43,983 nt of DNA from a virus. The notes beneath the pieces were generated by a model. It saw nothing but the letters and a program-made list of their open reading frames with translations, had not been told where the DNA came from and ran no database searches. This document shows, one piece after another, positions 2,425-29,224 of this stretch (the first letter of the stretch is position 1; each line of letters begins with the position of its first letter). The DNA is taken from positions 1 through 43,983 of IMG/VR virus record IMGVR_UViG_3300031269_000026. One strand, given 5' to 3'. Made by a program: the position numbers and the translations under genes.

Positions 2425-2463
2425 GCAATTCGCGCCCTGACACCCTGCATAGGAGCCTGCTGA
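2368..2463 (+). CDS. 31-residue single-span membrane micro-protein (copy 1)
   Basis: A 31-codon ORF starting at the ATG that overlaps the DUF1643 stop (ATGA). It encodes a short hydrophobic span (LIFTACALLLIASAA) with two polar residues before it and a Cys-containing tail. The next gene begins one base after its stop. A near-identical start and membrane span recur at 7022-7102 within an exact 63-bp duplication, which argues that this is a real unit. Function is unknown; it could be a small membrane regulator or a lysis-associated peptide. Confidence 0.5.
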   Translation: MTHAPLIFTACALLLIASAAIRALTPCIGAC

Positions 2464-2464
2464 A

Positions 2465-4105: not shown

Positions 4106-4200
4106 CCGCCCGCCAGATCATCGAAGCGCGCCTGGGCCGAAATCTACCGGCCACGCGCCAACTGCCGCCCGACAAGTGCCGGACGTTCCTGATGCCGTGA
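4102..4200 (+). CDS. 32-residue hypothetical micro-protein
   Basis: A short ORF that overlaps the upstream stop by 4 nt and reads MTARQIIEARLGRNLPATRQ and onward to MP. It is basic and probably helical. Support is only positional coupling, so I hold it loosely. It is followed by about 100 bases without a gene before the next ribosome-binding site. Confidence 0.35.
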   Translation: MTARQIIEARLGRNLPATRQLPPDKCRTFLMP

Positions 4201-4302
4201 AGGCCCGGCTTGATTTTTAACCCATGCTGCCCGTTCTGGGATCATCCCTCACGGTCAATCCGCTTGGTCGTGGTAGGCCGTGGGGGCACAAAGGAGACGA
4301 CA

Positions 4303-4507
4303 ATGACCGAACGCACGAAACTGAAAGAGCACATTGAAGCCGTGCTCAAAGGCATCAAGGGCCTGACTGTCGATGAAGCCACCGACATGCTGCACGAGAT
4401 CGCCGACGAAATTGCAGAGGGTGGCTCCGAGGACCTGTTCAACGGTGCAATCCTGGACGGCATACGATGGGGGTACGCCGCCGCTGTGCAAGTGGAAATG
4501 GCAGGCG
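4303..4507 (+). pseudogene. 5' part of a small phage gene interrupted by the insertion element
   Basis: The ATG at 4303 follows AAAGGAG and opens a helical, acidic protein (MTERTKLKEHIEAVLKGIKG). The insertion begins at 4508, and the frame now stops at a TAG created inside the element's left end (4510-4512). Removing the element and one copy of the 8-bp duplication joins this part in frame to 6814-6962 and restores a 117-residue product ending in SAKGVGTDD. The truncated product may still be made. Confidence 0.85.
4500..4507. repeat. 8-bp target site duplication, left copy
   Basis: GGCAGGCG immediately outside the left inverted repeat. The same 8 bp lies at 6806-6813 outside the right end, as expected for an IS1-like insertion. 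Confidence 0.9.
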
Positions 4508-4526
4508 GGTAGTGTCTCAGTTTGAA
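4508..4526. repeat. Left terminal inverted repeat
   Basis: GGTAGTGTCTCAGTTTGAA, perfect inverse complement of 6787-6805. The transposase stop codon lies inside it, at 4517-4519 on the minus strand. Confidence 0.95.
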
Positions 4527-5404
4527 ATATCTTTCTTTTTATAAGATCCACGCTTTTTGGGCGCAGGGGCGCGCGCGTCGATCAAGCCCACAATCCAAGC
4601 TGTGTCGTGCAAGGTGTCAGATACACCAGCGGCCATTGCGGGTGTCACTTTCAACGTCTTGTGGATGCGCACAAAGTTGTAATGCACGAAATACAGCGAC
4701 AGCATGTGAAGGTGGTTTTCCAGCTTCTTGCTGAAACCGTTGGTCAGGCGGGTGAAGCGGCGCATACCCATACGCATTGTCAGGTTCTGACGCTCAACGT
4801 AGGACGTGCTGACCAGTTCTTTTACAGGTTCACCCATGATCGCCTCTTTGCGCGATCCAGTGAAGCCTGCCGGGGAATACTTGCGCTCTGCTGACTTGCC
4901 GCCAAGTTCGCCATACATCTTGACCAGCATGGCATAGTCAATGTCTGCGCCAAAGGCACTTTCAACAGCGCTGAGATACGCCTTGTGTCCGTCCGTCGTC
5001 AGTTGAACCCGGTTGCTCAGACGTCGACGCAGATCGAACATGAACTCGTGCGCGGTTTCTGCTGAACGGTCGCCAACCTCAAATGACAGGATCATTTTGC
5101 TATCTGCGTCAATCGCGGTCCAAGTCCAGACGTCCCCAGCACCATCAGGTGCTGCCTTGGCGGTTTTTACGTTCTTGTCTTTGGCATAGCAGAAGGACCA
5201 GATTTCGTCACACTCGACGCGGGTGGAGCCTACATTGCGCACCGTCTCATCGTGGTACGCGGCGCAGGCCTCACCAGCCTCAACAAGCAGCTTTGTAACT
5301 GTGTTGATAGATACACCCACAACGCGGCTGATTGAGCGCATGGAACTGCCTTCAACCAACATGCTCAGGATCATCGCGCGGGTTTTTGTGTCAAGCTTGT
5401 TCAT
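4517..5404 (-). CDS. IS1-like DDE transposase
   Basis: A 295-residue transposase that cuts and joins the element's ends. An N-terminal helix-turn-helix (about residues 14-42, containing SMRSISRVVGVSINTVTKLL) binds DNA. The catalytic domain shows an ECDEIWSF segment for the first acidic residue, a TTDGHKAY segment for the second, and SYVERQNLTMRM for the final Glu. The motif HYNFVRIHKTLKVTPAMAAG is typical of the IS1-type transposases found in alphaproteobacteria. A basic, Lys-rich tail ends the protein. The ORF is intact, so the element may be active. A likely promoter lies directly before the start codon. Confidence 0.9.
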   Translation of the reverse strand: MNKLDTKTRAMILSMLVEGSSMRSISRVVGVSINTVTKLLVEAGEACAAYHDETVRNVGSTRVECDEIWSFCYAKDKNVKTAKAAPDGAGDVWTWTAIDADSKMILSFEVGDRSAETAHEFMFDLRRRLSNRVQLTTDGHKAYLSAVESAFGADIDYAMLVKMYGELGGKSAERKYSPAGFTGSRKEAIMGEPVKELVSTSYVERQNLTMRMGMRRFTRLTNGFSKKLENHLHMLSLYFVHYNFVRIHKTLKVTPAMAAGVSDTLHDTAWIVGLIDARAPAPKKRGSYKKKDISN

Positions 5405-5410
5405 GCCATT

Positions 5411-5439
5411 GTTATAGTTGCGGTATCACTATTTAACAA
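5411..5439 (-). promoter_or_regulatory. Candidate sigma70-type promoter of the transposase, possibly leaderless
   Basis: On the minus strand, TTGTTA (5434-5439) and TATAAC (5411-5416) are separated by 17 bases. The transposase ATG begins 6 bases after the -10 box, so transcription would begin at or very near the start codon. I see no Shine-Dalgarno site. Confidence 0.5.
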
Positions 5440-5453
5440 GCAAAAAGTTCACT

Positions 5454-6044
5454 TTAAATTTGTGCAATCGCATCTGCAAGCTTGTCCCAATCGTCCTCAA
5501 GCATGTCTTCCACGGTGCTAGTTGGCAGTTGAAGCTGTTCGGACAAAACTTCTAACGTGACTTCTCCGTCAGCAACTCTTTGCCTTGCTATTACTCGCGC
5601 AGCCTTTGGAAACAGCAGCATAAGACCTTTCTGCTGGGCCAAGATGTCGGCAGCTACTTTCATAGTCATGCGCGGCTCATCGCCAATTGAGGCGCGCCCC
5701 GCCAAAACCATGGCCAAGTCCATAATGTCATTGGAGTCTTTAGTCTTTGCCACATTGGCATCACAGACGTGTACAAGCTCTTTTGCGCACACGATCCGCC
5801 GGGACACAAAATCGACATTGGTTGGATACACAATTAGTGAGACCAAACGCGGCTCCGAGTACATCCCGCCGCTCGGCTCGGTAAGCTGAACATAGGTCCC
5901 AAGCAGTTGTTCGGTGTCCATATCTTCACCAACAACACGAATGTCATCCTGGTATCCCATCTCGACCAACGCGTCGCAGATTTCCTGAATTTCGACCGGG
6001 AGTTCGGTCTTTCCATCAAATTTAGCTTGCAGGTTCTTGAACAC
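5454..6044 (-). CDS. Passenger protein with degenerate ImmA/IrrE-like metallopeptidase features
   Basis: A 196-residue protein if translation starts at the GTG at 6044, which follows GGAGGGG; an upstream GTG at 6089 lies inside a terminator hairpin. Residues around RRIVCAKELVHVCD resemble the RR..AHELGH block of ImmA/IrrE (M78) peptidases with the first His replaced by Lys. The following KVAADILAQQKGLMLLFPKA segment resembles the family's A...LLMP block, and a helix-turn-helix-like end follows (LEVLSEQLQLPTSTVEDML). ImmA-type proteins cleave phage or ICE repressors or act with antitoxins. Lack of a full HEXXH motif suggests a non-catalytic or altered role. The homology is from pattern only. 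Confidence 0.5.
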   Translation of the reverse strand: MFKNLQAKFDGKTELPVEIQEICDALVEMGYQDDIRVVGEDMDTEQLLGTYVQLTEPSGGMYSEPRLVSLIVYPTNVDFVSRRIVCAKELVHVCDANVAKTKDSNDIMDLAMVLAGRASIGDEPRMTMKVAADILAQQKGLMLLFPKAARVIARQRVADGEVTLEVLSEQLQLPTSTVEDMLEDDWDKLADAIAQI

Positions 6045-6060
6045 TCGCCCCTCCAACAAA

Positions 6061-6086
6061 ATAGGCCCGGCAAAAACCGGGCCTAT
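6061..6086 (-). terminator. Hairpin terminator or attenuator between the two passenger genes
   Basis: A perfect 10-bp stem (6061-6070 with 6077-6086) with a 6-base loop. On the minus strand it is followed by the T-rich run TTTTGTT. It lies after the stop of the upstream passenger gene and just before the start of the downstream one, so it would lower transcription into the latter. Confidence 0.65.
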
Positions 6087-6112
6087 CACAGATATTGTTG
6101 ACTCTACAAGAT

Positions 6113-6544
6113 TTAGAGTTTTGTCTTTTCTTTGCCGCTATGCGGAGGGTTGTGAGGCATGCCCTTATCGATAGCAGCCCCGATCACTCTTTCGGCTTCC
6201 TTGCAAATACCAACGTCGGTTGCGTCGGTGCCCGCCAAGAACTTGATGTTATGCAGCTCGCGCCCACCCCTAGACAGAAGGTCGTGGAGGCTAGCCGAAC
6301 AAACTTCGGTCATTTCCTTCTCTCCTTTTTGCCACCGAGCGATGGCGGCTTGAGTTGCAATTCCTGAACGTCGCTCTGCGTCCAGCTTTTCATTCCGTGC
6401 TTTTGCACCAGCTACACCGCTTTTGCGGCGATTCTTTGACGTGTAGGAGGTTTCATCCTCTTCACCCGTCGCTATCCTCGCGACCATAACCGACATGCCG
6501 ATGGTGTCGGCGGGCCGCTTTTGTCCGCTTGGTCCTTTCGGCAT
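6113..6544 (-). CDS. Passenger protein of the MPKGPxGxKRPAD type
   Basis: A 143-residue protein starting at 6544, after AAGGTGGG; the longer ORF start at 6577 lacks a site. The opening MPKGPSGQKRPADTIGMSV and IATGEEDE blocks, followed by KSGVAGAKARNEKLDAERRS and AAIARWQKGEKE, match a hypothetical family common in alphaproteobacteria and mobile elements. The basic G-AKAR/AARW region looks like a short nucleic-acid-binding helix pair. No catalytic motif is visible. With the ImmA-like gene downstream it could form a two-gene maintenance or regulatory unit, which is inference. Confidence 0.65.
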   Translation of the reverse strand: MPKGPSGQKRPADTIGMSVMVARIATGEEDETSYTSKNRRKSGVAGAKARNEKLDAERRSGIATQAAIARWQKGEKEMTEVCSASLHDLLSRGGRELHNIKFLAGTDATDVGICKEAERVIGAAIDKGMPHNPPHSGKEKTKL

Positions 6545-6570
6545 ATGTCCCACCTTTGTTTGCCACGCGA

Positions 6571-6585
6571 GAGTCAAACTGACTC
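6571..6585. promoter_or_regulatory. Candidate operator dyad before the passenger genes
   Basis: GAGTCAAACTGACTC is a perfect dyad with 6-bp arms, 27 bases before the passenger start. Its TCAAACTGA core also occurs in the element's terminal repeats. It overlaps a TTGACA box (minus strand), so binding could control the passenger promoter. Confidence 0.35.
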
Positions 6586-6786
6586 GAATGTCAACCTCTC
6601 GTTGCCTATCTACACACTGCTACACTAGCACAGCAAGACGATTCGCGGTAAATTTTCCGTTGGCTGCGCGATAATTCGCCTCCCGTCAAGTGGTTTCCTT
6701 GCTGTATAGATATGCTTAGCCCCAGTTACTTCAAGACCAGTTTAGCGGTCGGGCTGATAACGCTAGGTTTACAAGCTCGATGAAAA

Positions 6787-6805
6787 TTCAAACTGAGACA
6801 CTACC
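6787..6805. repeat. Right terminal inverted repeat
   Basis: TTCAAACTGAGACACTACC, perfect inverse complement of the left end. An 8-bp copy of the target site follows at 6806-6813. The 210 bases just inside this end hold the promoter region of the passenger genes and no ORF. Confidence 0.95.
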
Positions 6806-6813
6806 GGCAGGCG
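6806..6813. repeat. 8-bp target site duplication, right copy
   Basis: GGCAGGCG directly after the right inverted repeat, matching 4500-4507. Confidence 0.9.
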
Positions 6814-6962
6814 GCGCAATGGTGCGCATCATCCTGCCGGGTGGAGTCGGCATCACACATGAGTGGGCCGACGAAAAGAAAGCCATGCCGCAGATCAACG
6901 CCGCGCTTTATACGCTGGCCAGTGAGCGAACGTCTGCAAAAGGGGTTGGTACTGATGACTGA
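6814..6962 (+). pseudogene. 3' part of the small phage gene split by the insertion
   Basis: Continues the frame of 4303-4507: after the duplication it reads GAMVRIILPGGVGITHEWAD and ends SAKGVGTDD. An ATG at 6780 inside the element is in frame, so a short fusion product (MKIQTETLPAGG...) is possible, but I see no ribosome-binding site for it. The stop overlaps the start of the next ORF at 6955. No domain is recognised. Confidence 0.8.
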
Positions 6963-7015
6963 CCTACACAAACGGGCCGAGGCGCTGGCAGAACAGCATG
7001 GAGCCGGTCCGCAAA

Positions 7016-7078
7016 GCGCACATGACCCACGCCCCGCTGATTTTCACCGCCTGCGCGCTGCTGCTGATTGCCAGCGCC
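7016..7078 (+). repeat. 63-bp direct repeat, copy 2
   Basis: Identical to 2362-2424. It marks the end of the plus-strand early cassette and lies just before the minus-strand tailspike stop. Confidence 0.9.
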
Positions 7079-7102
7079 ACTCGCCCGACGTGTCACGCCT
7101 GA
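7022..7102 (+). CDS. 26-residue membrane micro-protein (copy 2)
   Basis: It has the same first 19 residues as the micro-protein at 2368 (LIFTACALLLIASA span), then a different tail (TRPTCHA). Its stop overlaps the end of the convergent tailspike gene by 10 nt. It may be a by-product of the duplication rather than a maintained gene. Confidence 0.35.
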   Translation: MTHAPLIFTACALLLIASATRPTCHA

Positions 7103-10100
7103 GGCACCACAGTTATTGTAAAGCCTATTGTTCCGTTGGGGGACGTGACATTTGTTGGCCTGACAATCGTCCCGCCCGTGTGGGGGGTGATTATGACTGA
7201 AAATTGGTGCTTGCTTGAGGCGACAGGCCCTTCAATGTCGAATATGCCCTCGCTGACTGGCGCGGATGGATCAAGCGCATAGTCCGGCGATGCCAGCGGG
7301 CTAGACGACCCGAACCTGTGACCCACCACCACCAGTGCGCCGTTCAGTGGCTCCTCGAACGTGTCACTCAATGTCGGCGTGTAGTTTGCGCCTAGCGTCA
7401 GGGCGCTGTCACCCCGCAACGTGGTGCCCGCTGCCGTTGTAGTGGTGCGGGCGGAAAAGGTGAACGTGAAGGTGTCTGACGCTTCGGTTTCCGTCACTTC
7501 TTTGTAAAAGAAGTGGGCTTTGTAGCTGCCGTTGGACACTTCTGTGTCCCAGCTTGTCCCGTTCCACGTGTTGATCGGTCCCGCCGTCCACCCGGCGGGG
7601 AGCGGCATGTCGGCATCGCTGGCTTGTGCCCCCAGTGCAATTCGCAAATCGCCAGCTTCTGCGGGGCCGAAGGTCACAGTCCGAAAATCTTTGTAGGTAT
7701 GTACAGATTCATCGAAGTCCTGCAGGAGATAGACCCCATCGGGCAGCGCCGTAGTTGCCGCCGATGCCGTGACGACAGTCGCCAGGTTTCCGGCTCGGTC
7801 CTCATGGGTGAAGTAGATGTGGTAGGTCGTCCCGGTATCCAGCCCGGTCGCCTGAGACGTCAATGGTGTGCCTGCTGCCGTGGCTGCTATCTGGCCCGCG
7901 CCGTTCGCCGCTGAACCCGTGTGGTCGTTTCCGGCAGCAATCTGCGCGGTCGTCGGGGCTGTTTCCGATGTGCTGGCAACCCACCAGATCGCCCCCTCTG
8001 CGTCGTCGGTCGTGACGCTGATATCGAGGGCAGCCGCAGACGCTTCCGCAGCCGTCGGCAGTGTCAGGACAGGCGAGGTCGTGTCGGCCACATAGACCGA
8101 TGACCGTGCGCCGACGAATGCCAGCGTTGTAAACGGTACACCATCGACGTCGCGGTGCAGATCGAAGCCGTAGAGCGCCTCCCATTCGGCCAGCTTGGCT
8201 TCCAGATTGCGCGCGCCAAGGCCGATGATCACCGACCCGTCTTTTAGCGAATAATCCCCGTTGTCCGGATCGGTGAACACGTCAGTCGGCAAAACCTCCG
8301 TGTCGAATACGCTGTTCATGTTGGCGCTGTTGGCGGCACCGTTGGTCAGCAGGTTGCCCGAGACGTCGAAAAACGTGGTGTACCCGGCCCCGGTCTGGCC
8401 GTTCAGCCTGCCCGCCAGATTGTTCATCACATGATGCGTGTGTTGACCCTGCGGTGTAGAAGACCCCACGTCGATGTTGCGGCCTTCCAGCGTGTTGTTG
8501 ACCACCCAGTTGTGGCTTGGGTGCACAGGTTCAGCGCCCCCGCCGCCGCCGTTCTGGTCGCGGATCGCATCGCCGCCGGTGCCGCGCGGGAAGGACGACA
8601 TGCCGATGATGGTATTCGTCGATTGCTGCCACGTTGCATAACCGCCGCAATTCTCGACCTTGATGCCCCAATACAGCACTGCGTCCGACCCGACGTAGTT
8701 ATTGAACAGGTTGGCGTGTGCGCCCTGCCCGGAATCGCGGAACCGGCTGTACGCAATCAGCGCATCGTGCTGCGAATAAAGCTGCAAGGGCGATTGTTCG
8801 GCGCGAAGGACGTCGCAGTGCAGCAATCTCAAGCCGTCCGATGCCCTCTCGTCGCTGTAATCCGTCAGACTGATGCCATAGGAGCCCAAAACGTCCGCCA
8901 CGCTGACGTTTTCCAGAGTCAGATTGGAAAGGATTTCACCCTTGATGCCGTTGCCGAAACACGATCTTGCCAGAACATGCCGCACGCTCGCACCGGAAAG
9001 GCGGCCTTCGTCATTTCCCAGCCGACCAATTGTTAACGGCGTGCCGGTAAAGTGTCGCAGTTCAAATCCCTCGAACGATACGTGATCGGAACCATAAATG
9101 CCCACGCCATTGCTGCGGGCCATGACCTCCATGCCGTTTGCAAGATGCGTCTCGTCGTTCGGCCAGACAAAATAGGTCACGGTGCCGTCGCCGTTGTCTG
9201 CCAGCCCCCAGCGTCCCTGCGTCATATTCGGCAGCGCATTCAGCAGACCATAGAGATTGCCGCTGCCGTCCGGCGCCGACGCAGGTGCAATTGTCACCGT
9301 GTCGGATGTAGCACTGACGACAGGCGTGATGCTGGTGAAGTTTGGAAACCTGAAATAGGAGGCCCACATCCGTTCAAGCTGGGCCGGGGTGTATTCACCG
9401 ATCACATCCGCATCGGTGATCGTCTCGATGTCACCCGATCCGTCCAGCCCGAACGCGGTGGCCGAGTGATAATTTCCGGCATCGTTGTAGATTAGCGGGT
9501 TGGGACCGTCCGCCGCCCGGTCATACGCAATAGGCAGGATCGCATCGTCCTCGATGATATGCGCCGTGTATAGGCTTCCATCCGAAGGCGACCCAATCAC
9601 GGTCTTGGCAATCGTCACCTTCCAGATCGGCGAGTCCGCCACACCCAGCGTGGACCCCAGCACCGCCGCATCCGCCGCCGTGCATTGTGCCCAGCCAGTC
9701 AGCGCCGCGCCCCCGGTGATGATCGGGCGCTCCGTCCCGTAGCCTGCCAGCACGTTCTTGTCCCCTGATGTGCCGTCCCATGCCGTGATCGAGACATCTT
9801 CGCGGTACGTTCCAGCCCTCACGCGAATGGTCCGCTGCCCGCCTGCCGCCTTGGCCGCATTGACCGCGTACTGGATCGTTGCGAACGGCGCGGCGAATGT
9901 GCCCGCGTCGCCATCGTCACCGTCAGGCGCGACGAAGTAATCCCCATCCACGCCGAGATTGATCGACTCCGACCAGCCGTAGGACAGCAAGCCCCCGCCC
10001 CGCCGCAGACCAAATCCAAGATTGATCGACTCCAACCGGCCGTAGGACAGCGACGACAGCAAGCCCCCGCCCCGCCGCCCGCCAAGGCGCATACCAAATC

Positions 10101-17549: not shown

Positions 17550-17825
17550 CTACCGGCCCAGGTCGCCACCCATCTGCGGCTCATCAAAGAAGGCATCATC
17601 TGCCGTGATGATGGCGGCAGTCTCAAGCACGGCTGCGCAAAATTCCTCCCGGGTTTCCGGAAGCCGGACGGTTTCGGGCATCGCAAGTGCCTTTTCCACG
17701 TTTCGCGCCGTCTGCCACTGCGCATCTGCAATGTCGGGAGCCCCGGCCAGCGTCACTGTATTGGTGACGATAGCGACGGGAATTGCCACGCAAACGGTCA
17801 GGATGATCGCCTCGGACACCTTCAT
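17550..17825 (-). CDS. Small membrane-anchored virion-region protein
   Basis: A 91-residue protein with an N-terminal hydrophobic segment (AIILTVCVAIPVAIVTNTVT) and a soluble remainder (ETREEFCAAVLETAAIITAD) ending QMGGDLGR. It starts within the last codon of the giant gene (ATGA overlap), so its translation is probably coupled. The role is unknown; its position between the ejection protein and the spike suggests a late product. Confidence 0.55.
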   Translation of the reverse strand: MKVSEAIILTVCVAIPVAIVTNTVTLAGAPDIADAQWQTARNVEKALAMPETVRLPETREEFCAAVLETAAIITADDAFFDEPQMGGDLGR

Positions 17826-20800
17826 GGAATCAGCTTTTGCAAGCGCAGGAACTCCTTGTTGAATTGAACATATAGGACCTGCTGCGCTTTCTCAATGCGC
17901 TCGTATTCCGCCATGCGGGCCCGATCATCGAGGCTCTTGTCAAGGCGGGCCTTCATCCGCTCCCTGTTCAGCCCGCTGACCTGGCGGTTGATCCTGTTCG
18001 CCTGCGTGTACATGCGGTCGAGGATCTTGTAGCGCGCATCCACTGGTTCCCCTGCATCGTCGCCCTGCTTTTTGCGAGAGTGCGCGTCCCTGACTTCGCT
18101 CAAGCGGTCGTAATAGGCGCGACGATCCATCCAAACGCCGGTGGTGACTGTCACCTTTGGAAGGAACGGTATGGCCCGGTCATCAATCAGATCCGCCTTT
18201 CCGGTCGCGGCCTTGACCGCGACGTCGATCGTGTCCGTCCAGAACGTGCCCGCGCTGCCGGTTGCGGTCCCGATGGCGTGATCAATGTATTCCGGTGAGA
18301 CATCCAGCCACCCGCTTTGCGCCGCGTTTCCGCCTGTTTCCCGGTTGAGATAGTCGGCCACCTGGCGCGACATTTCAGAGACCCCGACATAATGCTTGTA
18401 GGCCATGGGCCCATAGTCGCTGAAATCGTATTCCGGGCGGATCGGGTTGCCCAGCCAGTTCTCGTTGTTCCGGAACTCCATTATGTCCTTCAAAAGAATC
18501 GGCGTCACCATGTCGGCGGGGTCGGTGAACCCCAGGGGCGATACGTCTGACGCGGCAGCGATTGCCACGTCCAGCATAGCCTCGTCTGCCGTCTTGACCC
18601 CGCGAAACACCTTGCCGATCTGGCGCCCAGCATAAGGGAACACCGAATAGACGTAGGGCATTGGCACGGACACGGCATCGTCCATCTGGCCCACGCCGCC
18701 CACACCATCTTCGCCCTGACGAACCATGAACAGGAAATTGCGCCGCGACTGGTAATCGGGGATCTTGTCATAGGCCAATTCGTCATCATCATCCGTGGCC
18801 GACAGCGAGGCGTTGACCAGATCCTCCATCAGCCCGTAGGACAACAGACTTGCCCCGACCGCCAAGCCGTACTTGCTGGTAAACACCGAAAGGAACACCT
18901 GCAGGCCTTGAATAGCCGCGTTGAAGAACAGGAACATTGCGTTTAGCCACGTCCAGTTGCCGCGGCGGTTAAAATTCACCGTGAGGTTCTTGGCCAAAAG
19001 GGCGGCGTCCTGCTTGGACCACCCCCGCTTGCGGGCCTCGACGTAGGACGCCAGCCGTATGGCGTTGTCCACTGCAATGTTGGTTCGCTCGATCATGCCC
19101 AAAGGCACGTTGTCCCGCGTCGAAAAGAACGCCCGGGGTCGGGTCGCTACTTTCAGGATCCGGGCGGCGCGATTGCCGCGCGCCAGGTCGATCCGGCGCG
19201 ACATATCCTCAGTTCCGGCGGTCGGATTGTCGAGCGTCCAGAAACTGATCTTAGCGCCTGCTTCCTCAAACTCTTTCCAGTGTCTGGTCCATACGGTGTT
19301 TTCCTGGTTGCCCATGCCCTTGAAGGACCCCATGAAGGCCTTGCCCCATGTCTTTGATACAGCCGCACCAAACCCCTTGGAGTCCGTCATCTGCGGCAGG
19401 TTGATCTGCGCGGCCTGAAAATCCCGCAGCGCGTTCGTAACGACAAACTCAGGGTTCAACATGGTGAGGATCATGGATTTGTAGCGTGTATAAGCCCCCA
19501 GTACGCGGACAACGCCGTTCAACTGATCCGCGCCGACCGCCCCGAGCGCATTAGCCAGCCGGTCATCATGCAGTACGATCCTGTGTTCATGACCCTGGAT
19601 CTTGATCGCAAACTCGTTGGGCTCCAATCGGCTGTTGGCAGGTTGCTCGACACGCGTCTCCACAAGCCCGGTCGTGCGATTGTAGAACCGCTTTTGCTTA
19701 GGCTTTTTCACCGACCACATGGCGTCGGACGGGTGCGCCTTGGCCAGTTCATAAAGTGCCTGCGACACGCGGTTTTTCTCAGCCCGGATAGAAACCTCCT
19801 TGGCCTGAGTAATTGCCGATATCAGCGGATTGAAGGCCATTGAGTTTCGGCCCATGGCGCGCATGCTTTCCGGGCCCCGCACGTTGTACCGTGGGCCGGT
19901 GCGGCGCGCGTCCAGTGTCGCCTCCGCGCCATCGCTCTCATCAAAGCCCTGCAACGGCACATAATGGGCGTACTGGTTTTTCCAGATTACATATTCCTTG
20001 GCCGACAACAGCCCGGCATCGCGCCGCAGTTTCAGTGTCCGTTCGCGCAGTTCATCAACCAAGTCGCCAATCTGGTCCAGTTCCGCCTGGTGCGCGCCGG
20101 ATGCCATTTGCGCAAGGTATGCGTCAGCATCCGCGTCCGTGATGCCCGACCCGCCGTCAGGCATGGCCAGGTTGATCGAAGCGATGCGCGCGTTTCGCTC
20201 CTTGGCATGACGTGCCGCCAGCCAGTCGCCCACGTTTTCCGTTGTCAGACCGCCATTGGTCTTGGCAATGATGTCGATGATCGGCTTGGTGAAATCCTCG
20301 TCGATCACAAACAGATGCCGCCCGGCCTTGCCCGAGAATGTCGTTTCGGTGGCGTAGGCATTGAGGTGGTTGGGCACGGGCCGTCCAGTGTCGGCCTCGA
20401 TCGCCTGCTGTGCCCGCAGTACGGGTAAGAAGCGGTCCTGCACGTTGAACCGGGCCTTGTCGATGTTGTCGTAGATCGCGGCGCCAACGCCTCGGATCCT
20501 GCCAAAGACAGAGACACCGGATCGCGTCAGTTCATCCCAGATTACCCGGTCGGGCACATGCACCGGCAGCGGCCCCGGCGGCGGTGGCCCCGGCGGTGTC
20601 GGACGGATGCGCGGCATCGGCGGGTTGCGCTGTTCCATAAGGGACGCGATGGATGCCGACTCCGCATTGCGCGCTCCGATCTGCCCGGCGATGACCTTGC
20701 CGAACACGCTTTCTGCGGTGGTAAATCCTTCGCCCCGCATGGCGTTGCGGATTGCCTTGAGCATCCGGTGGATCTTGTTGAACGCCCGGACCAGCAAAGA

Positions 20801-23800
20801 ACCCTGCGGTGCCGAACGGCTGGCCGCCCGCTGCGCAAATTCCTCCGCAATGGCTTCCTCGATCATTTCAGACGGCAACAGGTCAGGATACCGCGCCCGA
20901 ATGTCGTGTTTCTCGACCCAGCCGCGCTTGGCCGCAGCCTCAAGGGCCGACCATTCCTCCTTGGTAAACAGGTTCATCGCCCGCATGGCGTGGATCGCCT
21001 CATGGTACAGCGTGGCCATGGGGTTGATCGCCTGCCCGATCAGAACGTCGATCTGGCCCATGCCGTTCGCGCGCATGGCACCCTGGCGGTTTGCGCCGGG
21101 CACATCCATGTCCAGACCGACACGCTTGAGGTTCAGCCGGTCCAGTTCCGCCCGCAGCGCAGGTAGCATTGCCGATGCGGCATCACGATCCATGGCGGTG
21201 CCCGTGGCGGCGGGGCGCTGCTCTGCGGCGATTGGCTCCACAATTGGGTTCGCATCTTCAAAACCCTGAACTGGCTTGGCGATGTCCTCGATGAACGCCT
21301 TGCGGGCATCCTCACTGCGGAACGCAAAGGTCGGGCCCTTGCCACGCTTCTGTGCGGCCTTGTGCCACCATCCGCCGTGCGTCTTGGCAACAGCATTGAG
21401 GCGAACGAACTGGCCCTTGTCGACACGGCTTTCCATCGCGACGGCAGGGAACACCTTTCCCGCCCTCGATGTCACTGTCGTCATGGTTTGCGCGCCAGGA
21501 TCGGACGACACGGGCGCGGTCACGCGCGTCCCGGTGTCACCCTGGGCGGCGGCATCCGCTGCGTCTGCGGCATCCATGTCAGCTTCAACACCAGACGGGC
21601 CGATGCGATCGGGCCGGGCCGGGCCTGCGATGCCTTCAAGCCGTTCGAAGAAGTCGGCAATGGTGCCGGATCCGGTCATGTTGATGTTGGCGGCAGGCGT
21701 GAACGCCTCGGGCTTCATCACCCGGTCGAAGATCAGGACCCGGGCCGCAACTGCGGTGCCCGCACGCTCGAACGTCACGGACGGCAGGGACACGTCAGCC
21801 GAAAGGTTCCACTCGATGGACGTCTTGCCTATCCGGTCCATGAGTTTGCCGAATTGCTTGTCAGCTGCCGGGCCGGTCGGGACCAGCGCAACGACGCGAC
21901 CGCCGGGCCGCGTGTGCTGCATGGCTTTCAGGAGGTGGTCATATGCTGTCTTGCCGCCCGAACCGAACGGCGGGTTCATCACGACCACATCGTACTTGTT
22001 CACAATGTTCAGGTTCTCGAACGTGTCGTTGACCACGCGCGACCCCGGCGCCAGCAACTCGGCGCGGCTCGACAGATCCGCAGACGGCTCGACAATCGTC
22101 CGGTCGGCATGGCCGGGAAAGTAGCGCGCGATCGCCCCGTCACCAGCAGACGGTTCAAGCACCTTGTCGTAGGGCCTGACACCCGCCCACTCGACCATCT
22201 TGAGCGCCAGCGGTTCAGGCGTCGGGAAAAAGTCCAAACCCTTGCGCTGGTCGCGCTTGCCCTTCATTTTCTGGCGGCCGTAATAGTGCGTCTTGGCCTT
22301 GTCGAACTCGCTGGCCGTGTTGTCCACGCTGTCCCGTGCGCGACCGCCGATCCCGTCGCTCGATGATGGCAGGTTCCTGTCGGCCTCGGTGTAGGCATCG
22401 ACAAAAGCCTGTTGGATGGCCCGGGCCTCGTTGCCCATGGCGAGGTTTTCAACGGCGCCGGACTGTTCGGCGATGCGCCGGGCGAAGGCCTCACGCTCCC
22501 ATGCTGTGCCGATCGTGTAGTAGCGATAGGGTGCATTGGATACGCTGCCCACGCGTCGGGTGCGTCCCTCGGCCTGCAGGCTTGTGGTTGGCTTGGTCGG
22601 CATGCCTAGGTTGATCATAACGCGTTGGTGGCCGCCGGTGGTGTCGTGCAGGCTGATGCCGCCGGACCCTGCGTCTGACTGGACAACAAGCACGTCGACA
22701 CCGGACCCATCCAGATTGAACGCGTCCTTGTTTTCGGACCTCTTGCCTTTCGATATGGTGCCGTTGAACTCTCGGGCCTGATCGCCGAACGCCTCCATGA
22801 TCTGATCTTTCGGCGCTGTCAGACTGCCAAAATCCAGATCGTTGAGCCACGGCAAGTCGCGCTCCATCTGCATGCGCGCGGACTTGAGGTCCTCTGTTCC
22901 TGTGACCTTGAACGGACTGGTCGCCCCGCCCACGTTGAAGTCATGGAACACCACGACCTTGCGCCCCATGGCGAGGTGCTTTCTGATGTCTGGAATAGCC
23001 GCCTCGGCCTTCATGGCTTCCAGTAGCTGCTGGCGTTTGAGATATGTGAAATTGCGATTGACGGCCTTTCCCAATTCCTCCCAGCCCATAGCCGCAACCC
23101 TTTTTGCGTCGATGCCCTCCTGACCCGTCGTGCTGTCCTTGATTGCGGCCTGCAGTGCGGCCCGCTCCTCGGACTGCTTTTTCCAGATGTAGGCAATGGC
23201 CTCGTCAATCTTGCTGCCGATTTTATTCTCGACCGCAACAAACTTGCGGTCATAGTCAACATCAACCTCAAGTTTGCGCCCCCACAACGACCCCTCGCGC
23301 TTGAGCCTTTCGTGAAACTCGCGCTGGAACACGCCCCGGTCAACTGCGGCCTCGGGTTGGGTCAGCTTGTGATAGCGGATCCTGTATCCAAAGTTCTCGA
23401 CCATGAACCACTCGCGCCCGCCCTGATCGCTGCCTTCGCGGCGCTCGTCCTTCGGGTAGTCGAACAGATACCCCTCGCCGTAGTCCGTGTTTTTCTCATA
23501 GGAAAACGGCGTGGCCGACATGAACAGGACATTGCTACGCGGTGCTGTCGCCTTCTTGGCCGCGTCCCGTGCTTCCTGATAAACTGCGGCCATGGCTTCG
23601 GACTGTCGGTCCTTGTTGGTAATCGCGCGGGCCTTTGCCATCGCATCCCGTCGCTTCATCAATTCCTTGTCGAAAAGGTGCGTGGGCTTGTTGCTGATCG
23701 CGCGCAGGGTCCGCAGGGCTCCGGTTTGCTCCCCGGCCTTGTTCTGGGAAAGCGTGTGCGCCTCGTCGGCGATCACAAGATCCCATTCCCGATCTGCCAA

Positions 23801-26800
23801 AGTCTCATTGTTGGCTAGGTTGGCATAGGTGGTCACAAGCACAGGGCCGCGGCCCTCGCCATTGTCGCTGACGCCGTCCATCTGTGCCGCGTCCAATCCG
23901 GTCATTGGCGCAGACTCAACCCAATTGCGGGCTTCCTCCGCAGACCTGACCACGACCAGAACGGCCTTCGCGCCCCTGTCGACCGCGCGTTTGGCCGCGC
24001 CCAGCCCGGTGAACGTCTTGCCCGTGCCGACACCGTTGGTGATCAGCATGCCAAAGCCTTGCTTCTTGCCGTCCTCGGGCCGGAATAAACGCCGTTCGAT
24101 CCGCACCACGTCATCCACTTGCGCGGGCTGCAGTTGCGGCACGCTCTTGGCCACCTCCGCATGGTGCCTGGTCGGCGGGCTGTAGGTGTTGGTTACGCGG
24201 TCGGGGCTGTTTGTAGCAGTTTTTCGAGTTTGATCTGATCCTGAGTCGTCAGGCCGTAGTCCCGGCTGGCTGCGATCACCGCCATCTGCACCGTCTCCAT
24301 CACGGTCAGGCCGTCGCCCAGAGGGTCGCCCGTCGCCTTGAACGCCTGCACCGCTGGTGCCTCCCACAGCGTCGGCATCACGGCCAGGTAGGCCAGCGCC
24401 ACCGTCTCGCTGCCTGCCTCCTTGGTCAGCCGCTTCATTTCGGCCGCCATCTCGTCGTCCAGGACGTCCTGCGGCAGGGGAAACATCGCTTCCGCCCAAC
24501 TGGTCCTGAGATCCTGCGTTTCCGCTATCGCGTTCCACACTTCCGCCGGGTGCCTGTGCATCTGTCTCTCCTGTCAGGTCGATCTTGCCAGAACGCGCGT
24601 CGGCAAGGAAGCGTTCGAAGTAAGGGCGCATGGCGCGGAATGTCTCGCGGGTCAGGCCCTCGGCCAACAAAGGTCGCGCCATTGCGATATAGGCATCAGT
24701 GTCCGACATTGCATCAAGATCGAAGCCTTCGATGTTGCGCGCGAAGATCGGGACAGTGGCCGCGTAGGTGTCATCGTCAAAGGACGCGGTGTCCTCCTTC
24801 AACCCGCCGGGTTTCTTGCCGAACAGGTTGTTGAGCGCACTCGCGTCGGCAGACTTGGACGGCTTGCGGGGCGCGCGGGCAGGCGGCGGCGTCATCTGGA
24901 TCGGTGCGGCGTCTGTGGCGGCAGGGCCTTCCGCCTTATCCGATTCCGCACCAAACAGCGCGGCCTCTGCTGCGTCGAAGTCGGTTACTTCAGGCCCTGA
25001 TACCCGCCCGTTTCCGTCGCCACCTTGCGAATTTTGCGGAGTTGATCCAGTTCCGCCTCGTCCAGCGGGTGCAGGCCGTCCCGCTTCTCCGTCTCGACCA
25101 TCAGCCTGATCCGGGCCTCTATCTCGGATCGGGGTGACATCGAATCCAGCCCGTCCAAGCTGAGCGCGAACCTTGGCATCGGTTGCTTTGAATACTTCTC
25201 GGACATCAATGCTCTCCTTCTCAACAATTTGGGCAGAGTTGCCCGAAAAATCAATGACCCCATGCCGATGCAGGATCAGGTTAAAGATATGCCCATGAAC
25301 CGCATCCGCGACGTCTGCCGAAAGCGTCCCGCCTTTGACTTGCGGCAAAAAGTGCTGGAACAAAACCTGATGCACGCGATTGACAACGTCCTTGCGCGCG
25401 CCAAACGCAGCCTTGTCGTCCCACTTGTCCGCTGCCTTGTACCCGGGCCCCTTCCGAGCCGTGCTGACCGCACCCTTGTGCCCCATCGCGCGCACCTCGG
25501 GGAAGCCGACGCCCATTATTGTGATGTCTGCCGGGGAAAAGCCTCTATTGCTCGGGTGGTTGTGGGTGACGTACCCCACGAGACCGGCGTTTGCGGCGCG
25601 GTAAAGCGCATAAGACGGGTCCACTGACCCTCTGTCGCCCGATATCACCTCAAGCGGCAGGCCGTCCACGTCGAGCGCAACCAATATCTCCACGCCCGTA
25701 GCTTTGCCCTCCGCAAGAACAAACTCATCGGCACGCGCCTTTCGTGCTTCCATGGTTGGCAGGGCTTCCATGTCTGCCAGAAACGCAATGGAGTCCGCGC
25801 TTGTCGAATAGTCACGGCTTACCACCGGGAGTTTTTCGCCCGGCTCACGATATCGGTCGAGGCGTGCAGTCATTTTTGCCCGCGGGTCGGCATCAGTGTC
25901 CCGCCCGCCACCATCCTCGATATCGCTCTGTGCGTTGAACAAGGGCCCGCCGTCATCCTGCGGCGTGGTGGTGCCTATCTTGGACTGGTTTTTTCTGGTG
26001 TCGGCCTGCGCCTTGGCTTTGGCGTCGGCGGCGGCCTTTACCGCAGCGGCATTGGTGTCGCTGTCCCGCTCAAAGCCTGGCATGACGCCTTGCTCGCCCT
26101 CGGGCGTTTGTTCCGTGTTGCCAAACAAGGACGCCTCGGCGGAGTCAAATGGGTCTGCCGCCGGGGCATCTTGTTCCGGCGTTACTTCCGGGGCTTGGGC
26201 TTGCCCCCCTTGCGGAGCCAGTTGTCCACCTGCGCCGCCGCCAGCCTGGCCCTCTTGGCCTCCTGCGCCAGTTCCTTGAAGCGATCCGATGATATCCCTG
26301 AGAAACGCCCGGCGGGCTCTGGCGACGGGTTCTCCGGATTTGACGGCACGGGCGGCTTTTGTGAGCGCATCACTGATCGGTCCCTTCATGTTGGCTTGGC
26401 GCTGGATGTATTCCAGAACCTTTGCGTCCTGCTGAACCTGCGCCTCGTTGGCGTTCTGGTCCAGCGTGTTGCCCGCGCCCTCGATGGCTTCGCCGTTCTT
26501 CAACAGCGTGTTGAACGCGGACTTGTTCTTGCGAAGATCCTTGACGGCCCCGTCGAGAACCTTGGCCCGTTCCAGATATAGGGACTGCGCAACCTGTTCG
26601 CTACCGAACATATCGGTCTGGGTCTCGGTCGCCGTGTTGGCAGCGGCGTCTCTGGCGATCATTTCGGCCTGCGCTGCGTTGATGCTCTGCTTTTTGCCTA
26701 GAGTCGTCAGCATGCCCAGAATGTCGGCCTGTACGGCCTGATCCTTGACCACACGCCCGACCACAGACCCATCACGATCACTTGCGACGTTATTCGCCAC

Positions 26801-29224
26801 CATGCCAAAGGCGTCACCGGACAAGCGGCGCAGCCCTTCGGCGTCGCGGACAAGCGCGGACTTCGGCGGCAAGCCAAGATCCTCGATGGACTCGTTTCGG
26901 TCGCGCAAGACCCTTGCAGCATCCAGCGCCGTACCTGTGCCCTCGCCGATGTTCTTGAGCGCGGCAAGAGACATGACCTCCTTGGCGGTATATCCGTCCG
27001 TCTCGTTGTAAATAAGTGCGGGCATGCCGCCCACATCAGCCTGTCCAGATTCCGCCGCGCGCTTGGCGAGGCCAACACGCTGGTGGCCGTCTGCGACAAT
27101 CAGGCGCCCGTCCTTGGTGCGATACAGCATTGCTTGACCGGCCCGCGCCGGGTCAAAATTCCTGACACCCTGTAGCCGATCCGTGACGCCGGACTCATCA
27201 CCGCCGCTCTTGTACTGAAATATGCTGGCGTCAGTCTCAAGAGACAGCATTTCCTCGCTGGTCAGAAATTTGCTCTCAGGCCCGCCAGACCCGGAAGGCG
27301 TAGGCGTCGCAATGTCGGCCTGCTGACCTGCAGTAGCATTCTCGGCGGGGCGGGATCCGGGTCCCATATCGGCGTCAACCGCCCCACCTTGATCCGCACC
27401 CGGGAGGACGGGCACGGATTCCGGTGTCTCTGTTGCTCCATCATCGACAACCTCGACGGCCCCGGTCTGCGTGTCGAAACGCACGGTGCGGCCTGTCTCG
27501 CGCTGTTGATCGCCCTGCCCTTCGATTTCGGGCAAAAGCTCGTACCGATCTGGCGCATCCGGATCGAGCGGCATTTCCGGCGTGTCTTGCGGCGCGGCCT
27601 CTGGTGCGGCCTCTGGCGTTGCAGTTGGTGCTGCGGCGGGCGTTGTGGTTTCCTCATCGCGGTCTCGACTGCGGCCAAGGGCATTCGCCCCGCCGCCCAT
27701 TAAGCCGCCAAGGATCGCCCCGACAAGCGCCTGCTTTCCAACGTCCTTGTTGATGATGTCCTGTTCTGGGTCGTAGACGCCCAAGGCAATCAGGTTTTGC
27801 CCGATCGCCAATCCGCCCTCCTGGATGCCTTCCTCGATGCTGCCTTTGAATGTTGCGGATGCGAACCGACCGAGGCGACCAAGGATGTCACCCCTTACGC
27901 TGTCAGGAAGTCGGCCCAGTGCGCGCCATAAGGGGATGGCCTCGGACGTGCCCATGAACCCGGCAATTGCGGCCGCCGTCTGCGCATCGCGCTCGCTGGC
28001 GCCGGACTGCTTTGCCCGGTCATAGGCTTCCGTCTTGGCGACATCGGCGCCCATTTGCGCGGTGACAACCGCGCCATATGGTCCGGCAACAATGGGCGGC
28101 ACCATGAACGCCACCACAGACCCCGCTCCAGAAAACAGATCAGACCAAAGGGAATCGTCCTGCGGCGGCACACCAAAGGTTTTGTCCGTCCAGTCTTTCA
28201 GGGCGTCAGCCGTCCGCTCTGCCTTTTGCGTCCTGTAGCCTGCAAAGACCGGGCCGAACTCTGCGGTGTCGCTCCACTGCGCAACGGCTTCGGTCGCCTG
28301 GTCGAGGCGCTGGGTGTATGTAGCGCGCTCCTGCGGTGTCATTGGCGACTGGCCGTCATCCGACAAGCCTTTTGCAAGGATGTCCTCGAACGACTGGACT
28401 TGGCGCGCGGCCTCCTTCACCCATTTCGGCGCGTCTCGCTTGATCGCATCGAAAAGAGTCTTGTCGTTGATGCCTCGGGCGCGGACGATGCTTTGGAAAA
28501 CCCCCGATGCGCCTTGCGCGACTTCCTGGCCGCGACGCGTTGCCAGATCGCCAAAGGTTTCATCGGCGAAGGGGTCGACGGCTTTTGCGGCAGGCGGTGC
28601 GCCCGGCACGTTGGTCGCCTGCTGGTACTGCTGCCAGCCGATACCCTTGCCCTGCATGGCATCGAGAATGGATTGCCCGTTGCCCGGTATGGATTGCCCG
28701 GAAGGCATTGCGGGGCTCGGCATGGCCATTGGCGGTGCGGGTGGCGTCACTTGTGGTGGGGCGGCCTGCATCGGTGCGCCCGACGGCTGCGTGGCCTGCC
28801 GGTATGCCTGCTGTCCAAAAGACGGTCCTTGCATGGCCTGCAGCAAAGCCTCGCCAGTGGCCGGGACGATCTGTTGCGCCGCGACTGGTGGCGTCTGGCC
28901 CGGCGCCATGGGCCGCAGGGATGTTACGGGCGGCAGGTCCTGCTTCGGCATTGGCGCTGCGGCTGGGGCATTGACGCCGCGCATCATGGCCACAATGTCT
29001 TGCGGAGCGGACGGCATTGCGGGCTGCGCCGGTGGCGTCTGCGGCATGGCGGGGCGCGTCTGAGGCTTGGGCTCCGGCGCGGTTACGCCGACCTTGCCAA
29101 AGAAATCCGCCCGATCCATGTCTGAATAGAACCGCGCGTGCAGTGCTTCCGCCAGGGACGAGTCGTCAAGATCCCCGTATTCCGGAAATTTGCGCCGAAT
29201 GTCGGAAATTTTGATGTCAGCCAT
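17822..29224 (-). CDS. Giant polyvalent ejection protein, DarB-like (3800 aa)
   Basis: A single 3800-residue ORF. In order: a PxYxDLDD-type N-terminal motif (1-50); a Pro/Ala/Gln-rich linker; hydrophobic helices near 375 and 508; a ParB-like nuclease motif (ADGHQRVGLAKRA, about 714); a JAB/RadC-like HNHPS motif (about 1221) with S..D nearby; a helicase with Walker A GVGTGKT (about 1735), DEAH (about 1820) and a second helicase half (SDAGSGGISLHD, about 2187); an adenine-methylase NPPF (about 2418); a zincin HEAIH (about 2742); and an LPD38-like C-terminus with a hydrophobic region near 3440. Such proteins, like P1 DarB, are packaged and injected to protect incoming DNA. Three linkers carry nested +1-frame ORFs. 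Confidence 0.85.
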   Translation of the reverse strand: MADIKISDIRRKFPEYGDLDDSSLAEALHARFYSDMDRADFFGKVGVTAPEPKPQTRPAMPQTPPAQPAMPSAPQDIVAMMRGVNAPAAAPMPKQDLPPVTSLRPMAPGQTPPVAAQQIVPATGEALLQAMQGPSFGQQAYRQATQPSGAPMQAAPPQVTPPAPPMAMPSPAMPSGQSIPGNGQSILDAMQGKGIGWQQYQQATNVPGAPPAAKAVDPFADETFGDLATRRGQEVAQGASGVFQSIVRARGINDKTLFDAIKRDAPKWVKEAARQVQSFEDILAKGLSDDGQSPMTPQERATYTQRLDQATEAVAQWSDTAEFGPVFAGYRTQKAERTADALKDWTDKTFGVPPQDDSLWSDLFSGAGSVVAFMVPPIVAGPYGAVVTAQMGADVAKTEAYDRAKQSGASERDAQTAAAIAGFMGTSEAIPLWRALGRLPDSVRGDILGRLGRFASATFKGSIEEGIQEGGLAIGQNLIALGVYDPEQDIINKDVGKQALVGAILGGLMGGGANALGRSRDRDEETTTPAAAPTATPEAAPEAAPQDTPEMPLDPDAPDRYELLPEIEGQGDQQRETGRTVRFDTQTGAVEVVDDGATETPESVPVLPGADQGGAVDADMGPGSRPAENATAGQQADIATPTPSGSGGPESKFLTSEEMLSLETDASIFQYKSGGDESGVTDRLQGVRNFDPARAGQAMLYRTKDGRLIVADGHQRVGLAKRAAESGQADVGGMPALIYNETDGYTAKEVMSLAALKNIGEGTGTALDAARVLRDRNESIEDLGLPPKSALVRDAEGLRRLSGDAFGMVANNVASDRDGSVVGRVVKDQAVQADILGMLTTLGKKQSINAAQAEMIARDAAANTATETQTDMFGSEQVAQSLYLERAKVLDGAVKDLRKNKSAFNTLLKNGEAIEGAGNTLDQNANEAQVQQDAKVLEYIQRQANMKGPISDALTKAARAVKSGEPVARARRAFLRDIIGSLQGTGAGGQEGQAGGGAGGQLAPQGGQAQAPEVTPEQDAPAADPFDSAEASLFGNTEQTPEGEQGVMPGFERDSDTNAAAVKAAADAKAKAQADTRKNQSKIGTTTPQDDGGPLFNAQSDIEDGGGRDTDADPRAKMTARLDRYREPGEKLPVVSRDYSTSADSIAFLADMEALPTMEARKARADEFVLAEGKATGVEILVALDVDGLPLEVISGDRGSVDPSYALYRAANAGLVGYVTHNHPSNRGFSPADITIMGVGFPEVRAMGHKGAVSTARKGPGYKAADKWDDKAAFGARKDVVNRVHQVLFQHFLPQVKGGTLSADVADAVHGHIFNLILHRHGVIDFSGNSAQIVEKESIDVREVFKATDAKVRAQLGRAGFDVTPIRDRGPDQADGRDGEAGRPAPAGRGGTGSTPQNSQGGDGNGRVSGPEVTDFDAAEAALFGAESDKAEGPAATDAAPIQMTPPPARAPRKPSKSADASALNNLFGKKPGGLKEDTASFDDDTYAATVPIFARNIEGFDLDAMSDTDAYIAMARPLLAEGLTRETFRAMRPYFERFLADARSGKIDLTGETDAQAPGGSVERDSGNAGSQDQLGGSDVSPAAGRPGRRDGGRNEAADQGGRQRDGGAGLPGRDADAVGGTSGAGVQGDGRPSGRRPDRDGDGADGGDRSQPGLRPDDSGSDQTRKTATNSPDRVTNTYSPPTRHHAEVAKSVPQLQPAQVDDVVRIERRLFRPEDGKKQGFGMLITNGVGTGKTFTGLGAAKRAVDRGAKAVLVVVRSAEEARNWVESAPMTGLDAAQMDGVSDNGEGRGPVLVTTYANLANNETLADREWDLVIADEAHTLSQNKAGEQTGALRTLRAISNKPTHLFDKELMKRRDAMAKARAITNKDRQSEAMAAVYQEARDAAKKATAPRSNVLFMSATPFSYEKNTDYGEGYLFDYPKDERREGSDQGGREWFMVENFGYRIRYHKLTQPEAAVDRGVFQREFHERLKREGSLWGRKLEVDVDYDRKFVAVENKIGSKIDEAIAYIWKKQSEERAALQAAIKDSTTGQEGIDAKRVAAMGWEELGKAVNRNFTYLKRQQLLEAMKAEAAIPDIRKHLAMGRKVVVFHDFNVGGATSPFKVTGTEDLKSARMQMERDLPWLNDLDFGSLTAPKDQIMEAFGDQAREFNGTISKGKRSENKDAFNLDGSGVDVLVVQSDAGSGGISLHDTTGGHQRVMINLGMPTKPTTSLQAEGRTRRVGSVSNAPYRYYTIGTAWEREAFARRIAEQSGAVENLAMGNEARAIQQAFVDAYTEADRNLPSSSDGIGGRARDSVDNTASEFDKAKTHYYGRQKMKGKRDQRKGLDFFPTPEPLALKMVEWAGVRPYDKVLEPSAGDGAIARYFPGHADRTIVEPSADLSSRAELLAPGSRVVNDTFENLNIVNKYDVVVMNPPFGSGGKTAYDHLLKAMQHTRPGGRVVALVPTGPAADKQFGKLMDRIGKTSIEWNLSADVSLPSVTFERAGTAVAARVLIFDRVMKPEAFTPAANINMTGSGTIADFFERLEGIAGPARPDRIGPSGVEADMDAADAADAAAQGDTGTRVTAPVSSDPGAQTMTTVTSRAGKVFPAVAMESRVDKGQFVRLNAVAKTHGGWWHKAAQKRGKGPTFAFRSEDARKAFIEDIAKPVQGFEDANPIVEPIAAEQRPAATGTAMDRDAASAMLPALRAELDRLNLKRVGLDMDVPGANRQGAMRANGMGQIDVLIGQAINPMATLYHEAIHAMRAMNLFTKEEWSALEAAAKRGWVEKHDIRARYPDLLPSEMIEEAIAEEFAQRAASRSAPQGSLLVRAFNKIHRMLKAIRNAMRGEGFTTAESVFGKVIAGQIGARNAESASIASLMEQRNPPMPRIRPTPPGPPPPGPLPVHVPDRVIWDELTRSGVSVFGRIRGVGAAIYDNIDKARFNVQDRFLPVLRAQQAIEADTGRPVPNHLNAYATETTFSGKAGRHLFVIDEDFTKPIIDIIAKTNGGLTTENVGDWLAARHAKERNARIASINLAMPDGGSGITDADADAYLAQMASGAHQAELDQIGDLVDELRERTLKLRRDAGLLSAKEYVIWKNQYAHYVPLQGFDESDGAEATLDARRTGPRYNVRGPESMRAMGRNSMAFNPLISAITQAKEVSIRAEKNRVSQALYELAKAHPSDAMWSVKKPKQKRFYNRTTGLVETRVEQPANSRLEPNEFAIKIQGHEHRIVLHDDRLANALGAVGADQLNGVVRVLGAYTRYKSMILTMLNPEFVVTNALRDFQAAQINLPQMTDSKGFGAAVSKTWGKAFMGSFKGMGNQENTVWTRHWKEFEEAGAKISFWTLDNPTAGTEDMSRRIDLARGNRAARILKVATRPRAFFSTRDNVPLGMIERTNIAVDNAIRLASYVEARKRGWSKQDAALLAKNLTVNFNRRGNWTWLNAMFLFFNAAIQGLQVFLSVFTSKYGLAVGASLLSYGLMEDLVNASLSATDDDDELAYDKIPDYQSRRNFLFMVRQGEDGVGGVGQMDDAVSVPMPYVYSVFPYAGRQIGKVFRGVKTADEAMLDVAIAAASDVSPLGFTDPADMVTPILLKDIMEFRNNENWLGNPIRPEYDFSDYGPMAYKHYVGVSEMSRQVADYLNRETGGNAAQSGWLDVSPEYIDHAIGTATGSAGTFWTDTIDVAVKAATGKADLIDDRAIPFLPKVTVTTGVWMDRRAYYDRLSEVRDAHSRKKQGDDAGEPVDARYKILDRMYTQANRINRQVSGLNRERMKARLDKSLDDRARMAEYERIEKAQQVLYVQFNKEFLRLQKLIP
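24193..24561 (-). CDS. Nested ORF 3 inside the giant gene (+1 frame)
   Basis: A 122-residue ORF over giant residues 1554-1677, ending just before the helicase domain. The ATG at 24561 follows AGGAGAG by 6 bases. By hand count about 101 of 122 codons end in G or C. The protein is helical and normal in composition (HPAEVWNAIAETQDLRTSWA; MAAEMKRLTKEAGSETVALA; YLAVMPTLWEAPAVQAF). The giant frame here is Gly/Asp/Arg-rich (GRPGRRDGGRNEAADQGGRQ). This is the best supported of the three nested ORFs. I recognise no family. Confidence 0.65.
   Translation of the reverse strand: MHRHPAEVWNAIAETQDLRTSWAEAMFPLPQDVLDDEMAAEMKRLTKEAGSETVALAYLAVMPTLWEAPAVQAFKATGDPLGDGLTVMETVQMAVIAASRDYGLTTQDQIKLEKLLQTAPTA
24985..25206 (-). 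CDS. Nested ORF 2 inside the giant gene (+1 frame)
   Basis: A 73-residue ORF over giant residues 1339-1413. The ATG at 25206 follows AAGGAG by 8 bases. The product (MSEKYSKQPMPRFALSLDGL, then EIEARIRLMVETEKRDGLHP and a LDEAELDQLRKIRKVA helix) has ordinary globular composition. The giant frame here is the low-complexity DRGPDQADGRDGEAGRP stretch. It ends just before the giant frame returns to a normal segment (EVTDFDAAEAALFG). No family is recognised. Confidence 0.55.
   Translation of the reverse strand: MSEKYSKQPMPRFALSLDGLDSMSPRSEIEARIRLMVETEKRDGLHPLDEAELDQLRKIRKVATETGGYQGLK
26182..26370 (-). CDS. Nested ORF 1 inside the giant gene (+1 frame)
   Basis: A 62-residue ORF in the +1 frame over giant residues 951-1014. 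Its second half (DRFKELAQEAKRARLAAAQV then DNWLRKGGKPKPRK) is an amphipathic basic helix whose codons almost all end in G or C. Over the same bases the giant frame reads GTGAGGQEGQAGGGAGGQ. The ribosome-binding site is only moderate (AAGGGA). Its first half overlaps a normal-looking part of the giant, so it may alternatively record an ancient frame change. Function is unknown. Confidence 0.4.
   Translation of the reverse strand: MRSQKPPVPSNPENPSPEPAGRFSGISSDRFKELAQEAKRARLAAAQVDNWLRKGGKPKPRK

Follow-up and report, generated by a model that had tools for sequence, protein, structure and literature searches.

Introduction

Among the small proteins encoded by phages are anti-restriction and anti-CRISPR proteins, most of them acidic. 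In overlaps of the phiX174 type, such as gene E in gene D, a complete gene lies within another gene on the same strand, in the +1 frame, and is translated from the same mRNA (PMC8227390). In the asymmetric overlaps of known genealogy reviewed there, it is always the de novo frame that varies more (PMC8227390). At the other end of the size range is the polyvalent DarB methylase-helicase dyad, in which, in the P1 order, the methylase lies N-terminal to the helicase (PMC5512222); a text search of that paper found no mention of nested genes.

Here we analyze a 43,983-nucleotide stretch of viral DNA (the window; IMG/VR virus record IMGVR_UViG_3300031269_000026, positions 1 to 43,983). The nearest relatives that we found come from two marine alphaproteobacteria, Thiosulfatihalobacter marinus and Salipiger marinus, where they occur as prophage sequences. 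The window contains a giant gene whose product, like the DarB dyad, has a SWI2/SNF2-like helicase, an adenine methyltransferase-like domain, and an LPD38 domain; in contrast to P1 DarB, the order is reversed, with the helicase rather than the methylase coming first. Inside this giant gene lies a complete +1-frame gene on the same strand, as in overlaps of the phiX174 type, and it is likewise predicted to be translated from the mRNA of its host. It differs from those overlaps in that the host is a giant gene of dsDNA tailed phages and in that it occurs across phages of several bacterial phyla. It also differs from the asymmetric overlaps of known genealogy, in that the small nested frame is constrained and predicted to be well folded whereas the long host frame is neutral. 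Its product resembles anti-restriction and anti-CRISPR proteins in being small and mostly acidic and in having two free-standing relatives that adjoin defence systems; unlike them, it is encoded on what appears to be a structural-gene mRNA and is strictly tied to the giant. Our literature search, carried out mostly outside subscription papers and preprints, found no description of this nested gene.

Results

An open reading frame with conserved start signals inside a polyvalent-protein gene

The giant protein combines an SF2/SWI2-SNF2 helicase (residues 1705-2226), an adenine methyltransferase-like domain (residues about 2320-2450), and an LPD domain, the combination that defines DarB-like polyvalent proteins. 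The Pfam ResIII and LPD38 matches lie above cut-off, those to MTS and the helicase C-terminal domain are weak, and PHROG DNA methyltransferase families also match. The gene shares its strand with the portal, terminase, virion structural, and tail genes, and its product is probably carried in the virion.

Table 1. Features of the giant gene and the nested gene in the window.
Feature	Coordinates	Strand	Remarks
Giant polyvalent-protein gene	17822..29224	minus	3,800 aa; helicase, adenine-methyltransferase-like domain, LPD38
Giant residues 1555-1677, disordered (predicted) Gly/Asp/Arg-rich linker	24194..24562	minus	same DNA as nested gene
Helicase-methyltransferase module of giant	21628..24154	minus	always after nested gene
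Nested +1-frame gene	24193..24561	minus	122 aa; ATG 24561-24559, stop 24195-24193
Shine-Dalgarno AGGAG of nested gene	24568..24572	minus	6 nt before nested ATG

A first-pass annotation, made from the sequence alone, had pointed to a complete, ATG-started ORF of 122 aa in the +1 frame of the giant, and its coordinates proved exact. That annotation named no strand; ORF and giant are both encoded on the minus strand. The ORF lies wholly within the giant ORF on the same strand, in the +1 frame relative to 29224..17822 (offset 4663 mod 3 = 1). The ribosome-binding site that had been proposed upstream of the ATG is present; it reads AGGAGAG if a spacing of 4 nt is taken. So, too, are the codons ending in G or C, put at about 101 of 122: GC at nested codon positions 1/2/3 is 0.67/0.44/0.83, the last value corresponding to exactly 101/122. 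As claimed, the nested product has an ordinary helical composition, and the giant frame, described as Gly/Asp/Arg-rich over the overlap, has a G/S/D/R/A-rich composition.

The start site is conserved in the family. The start codon is ATG in 145 of 147 homologues, and 127 of the 147 nested starts have a suitably spaced Shine-Dalgarno match of 4 nt or more ahead of them; among 14,081 other +1-frame ATGs of these giants the figure is 18%. The mRNA near the nested start is also less structured than at positions picked at random along these giants (mean +4.8 kcal/mol, Wilcoxon p 2e-19), a signal that owes part of its size to A-rich start sites.

These start signals bear on the idea that programmed +1 frameshifting takes some of the ribosomes translating the giant into the nested frame, which would make the nested product the C-terminal end of a shortened giant and not a protein of its own. 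Frameshifting is common in phages and the nested frame is always +1, as such a mechanism would have it. Against this, the ATG and Shine-Dalgarno sequence are conserved right at the start of the domain, and the free-standing copies described below begin there as well. Furthermore, in 58 of 126 homologues the nested frame is closed by a stop no more than 6 codons ahead of its start, sometimes directly before the ATG; because these stops lie so near, there is almost no room for a frameshift. We consider this explanation very improbable.

The nested ORF accompanies every upstream-fused giant examined

We scanned viral contigs and bacterial genomes with the helicase module as query and obtained 183 distinct loci, counting a locus as upstream-fused when 150 or more codons of open giant frame precede the helicase. 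All 173 upstream-fused loci have a nested homologue, always in the +1 frame; one of these is a decayed remnant. The nested gene is absent at 7 loci, which lack the upstream fusion or are fragments. The non-fused loci are mostly flavobacterial, and in these the helicase starts its own ORF. We looked for homologues that keep the linker but lack the +1 ORF, which would have counted against the first-pass annotation, and found none among the 173 with the exception of a Pseudomonas thermotolerans prophage remnant (L152, 6815-8441), where both genes have decayed: only the first 19 residues of the nested product are left, and the giant is truncated too.

Searches of phage records with the 122-aa product by tblastn found Ruegeria phage 45A6 at 51%, with weaker matches in Klebsiella phage ZX1 and in Vibrio phages 1.232.O and D274; with relatives as queries, Serratia phage Parlo and Pseudomonas phage Skulduggery were added. 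Every one of these matches lies inside a giant CDS, none is annotated as a separate gene, and all that we checked are in the +1 frame. Nested matches and full-length matches to the helicase region occur in exactly the same eight phage records. Judging from record titles, several of which denote MAGs, the hosts include alpha-, beta-, and gammaproteobacteria, Negativicutes, Bacteroidota, and Verrucomicrobiota.

Some loci depart from the typical arrangement. In certain Acinetobacter prophages no more than about 180 codons of open giant frame precede the nested gene. At another locus (L206, 4286-5062) the giant breaks just past the nested gene: the helicase continues in a different frame, and relative to the upstream half the nested gene keeps its +1 position. 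This is a natural version in two genes or else reflects a sequencing error. The giant frame is also interrupted at two further loci (L141 and L131). We considered a separate helicase start just past the nested stop; because there is a giant-frame ATG near the junction in only 35 of 122 loci, such a start is not general.

None of the other same-strand, alternative-frame ORFs of the giant is conserved in a comparable way. A second ATG-started +1 ORF, of 140 aa, lies over a different giant linker (27262-27684, minus strand); it has no homologue in any locus and is therefore probably due to chance. On the opposite strand, long ORFs that cover the helicase and methyltransferase match many sequences; we read these ORFs as shadows of the conserved giant.

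Selection acts on the nested frame in the overlap

To compare the two frames we used a simplified, OLGenie-like counting method in which substitutions are classed by their effect in both frames; its correction for saturated classes is rough. In 22 disjoint pairs, dN/dS of the nested frame at giant-nonsynonymous sites is 0.225 (95% bootstrap CI 0.18-0.27), whereas dN/dS of the giant frame at nested-nonsynonymous sites in the overlap is 1.04 (0.92-1.17). The 71 overlapping pairs show the same direction. The nested frame is thus the selected frame in the overlap, as the first-pass annotation had proposed from codon usage, and a +1-frame dN/dS near 1, which would have spoken against it, was not seen (0.23).

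The distribution of differences over codon positions tells the two frames apart as well. At giant positions 1/2/3, differences per codon are 0.28/0.24/0.45 upstream and 0.15/0.11/0.38 in the helicase, compared to 0.27/0.14/0.12 in the overlap.

The giant frame is nevertheless maintained there, even though its amino acids are not constrained. Across 147 homologues there are no giant-frame stops inside the nested region; synonymous shuffling of the nested gene leads to an average of 1.8 such stops per gene. We therefore infer that the giant is translated through the overlap with its residues almost unconstrained. In the reverse test, the +1 frame stays open in 12.5% of synonymous shuffles of the giant codons at the source locus and in 8.7% on average over 103 homologues. 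The summed log10 P over these homologues is -148, a value that is over-counted as the loci are related; the open +1 frame exceeds chance.

These data also bear on the possibility that GC-rich, codon-biased DNA produced the ORF as a mere shadow of a conserved giant. GC-rich genomes do hold many long spurious ORFs, of which the window has dozens. Yet the giant-frame residues are neutral in the overlap, so that there is nothing to shadow; the nested gene is conserved in the AT-richer phages of Vibrio and Acinetobacter too; and the other alternative-frame ORFs of the giant behave otherwise. Together with the predicted structure and the free-standing homologues, the dN/dS values refute this reading, to which we assign practically no weight.

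The nested product is predicted to be a compact helical domain

AlphaFold2, given 91 homologues, models the nested protein with a pLDDT of 96.3 and a pTM of 0.89, as seven helices, predicting a compact all-helical domain. In contrast, the giant-frame translation of the same DNA (31 homologues) has a pLDDT of 54 overall and of 38-49 in the blocks of the overlap core, and this segment is predicted to be disordered. The linker thus looks like the by-product that the first-pass annotation had taken it for, with a dN/dS near 1 and a disordered model.

The nested family has no detectable relatives. Foldseek searches of solved and viral structures found no similar fold (best E 1.4 and 0.76), and sequence searches of Pfam, PHROGs, PADLOC, and PDB with the nested family gave scattered weak matches and no convincing family. 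The C-terminal part of the family has a weak likeness to the PrmC N-terminal domain; it lacks fold support and we treat it as chance. We found no relationship in sequence or fold to known anti-restriction or anti-CRISPR inhibitors.

Two free-standing relatives lie next to defence systems

A family-profile search of about 1,800 genomes found two copies outside any giant, besides the nested copies and two chance PrmC matches. In one (L191, genome G1086, 1461-9025), the homologue is the N-terminal domain of a 557-aa protein encoded directly upstream of HsdR, HsdS, and HsdM; further on, past this type I restriction operon, is an AbiU2-like HEPN protein. In the other (L192, genome G1292, 8551-8961), a 136-aa homologue is encoded upstream of cas9, with a CRISPR array beyond cas9. 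This gene has its own promoter-like sequence and sits between two similar promoter-like segments with the inverted repeat ATGGAC...GTCCAT.

Both free-standing copies are chromosomal and begin at the same point as the nested domain. Their placement within clades of nested sequences from Negativicutes (support 0.98 and 0.99) suggests that they escaped from the overlap. Judged by their sequences, they show that the small protein would be able to exist as an independent gene product, without the giant. Their defence-system neighbourhood is suggestive, with two cases.

Given these neighbours, the nested product could be a real but independent anti-defence effector of the anti-restriction or anti-CRISPR type, placed in the giant for co-expression and compactness and not on account of any binding to it. 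Consistent with this, the giant module resembles the anti-restriction protein DarB, the nested protein is mostly acidic across the family (median pI 4.9), and the only two free-standing copies adjoin an HsdR-HsdS-HsdM operon and cas9 with its array. However, two cases are few and adjacency to defence genes may be chance, PADLOC gave no convincing match, and an independent effector would be expected alone more often. The strict one-to-one linkage to one giant architecture also argues against it, as does correlated divergence: the divergence of the nested protein and that of the helicase are correlated (Spearman 0.64), and no permutation reached as high a value. On balance, we regard an independent effector as unlikely.

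Discussion

Our results favor the reading that the nested ORF is a genuine, separately translated gene and that the giant frame across it serves as a spacer; we put the probability of this at roughly 0.9. Internal initiation on the giant mRNA, at the nested ATG, would yield a distinct protein about 120 aa long. Ribosomes translating the giant would cross the same DNA in their own frame, producing a flexible spacer that joins the N-terminal part of the giant to the helicase-methyltransferase module, and selection on the giant frame in the overlap would act mainly against stop codons. That a separate protein is made from the same mRNA, as the first-pass annotation suggested, is strongly indicated at the level of gene sequence by the ATG, the Shine-Dalgarno sequence, the upstream stops, and the stand-alone homologues.

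What this separate protein does is a more tentative matter. We think it close to an even call that it is a dedicated partner of the helicase-methyltransferase module, perhaps holding the module inactive before delivery or aiding its folding or packaging. We favor this role because the nested gene is never missing at intact fused modules and follows the module phylogeny; the argument is one from co-occurrence, and the two free-standing copies persist without a giant.

To say that the nested gene is overprinted on the giant, as the first-pass annotation did, makes the giant the older of the two, an order of origin that the data do not establish. By the yardstick that the newer frame evolves faster (PMC8227390), it is the giant linker, not the nested gene, that looks like the newcomer. 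The giant may thus have formed by fusion across a small gene that already existed, although our search of about 1,800 genomes found no ancestral free-standing copy. On such an account, an upstream gene would have become fused to a helicase-methyltransferase gene by reading through the small gene in another frame, leaving an overprinted linker selected only to stay open, and the small protein, new in fold, would serve translocase-methyltransferase machines as a regulator or anti-defence partner. Taken as a whole, this scenario is possible but doubtful. Since nested ORFs are suppressed by gene callers, the family would then have gone unnoticed in phages of several bacterial phyla.

The separately translated gene that we favor would represent a previously unannotated protein family, without a detectable relative in sequence or fold, inside one of the largest phage genes. 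The nested ATG takes in the third base of a GAT codon of the giant, and a substitution that leaves the giant protein unaltered could abolish this start. It would reverse the usual asymmetry of overlaps, with the short nested frame constrained and the long host frame drifting as a spacer. The nested gene is never lost where the fused giant is intact, and it shows that ancient conserved genes escape current phage annotation.
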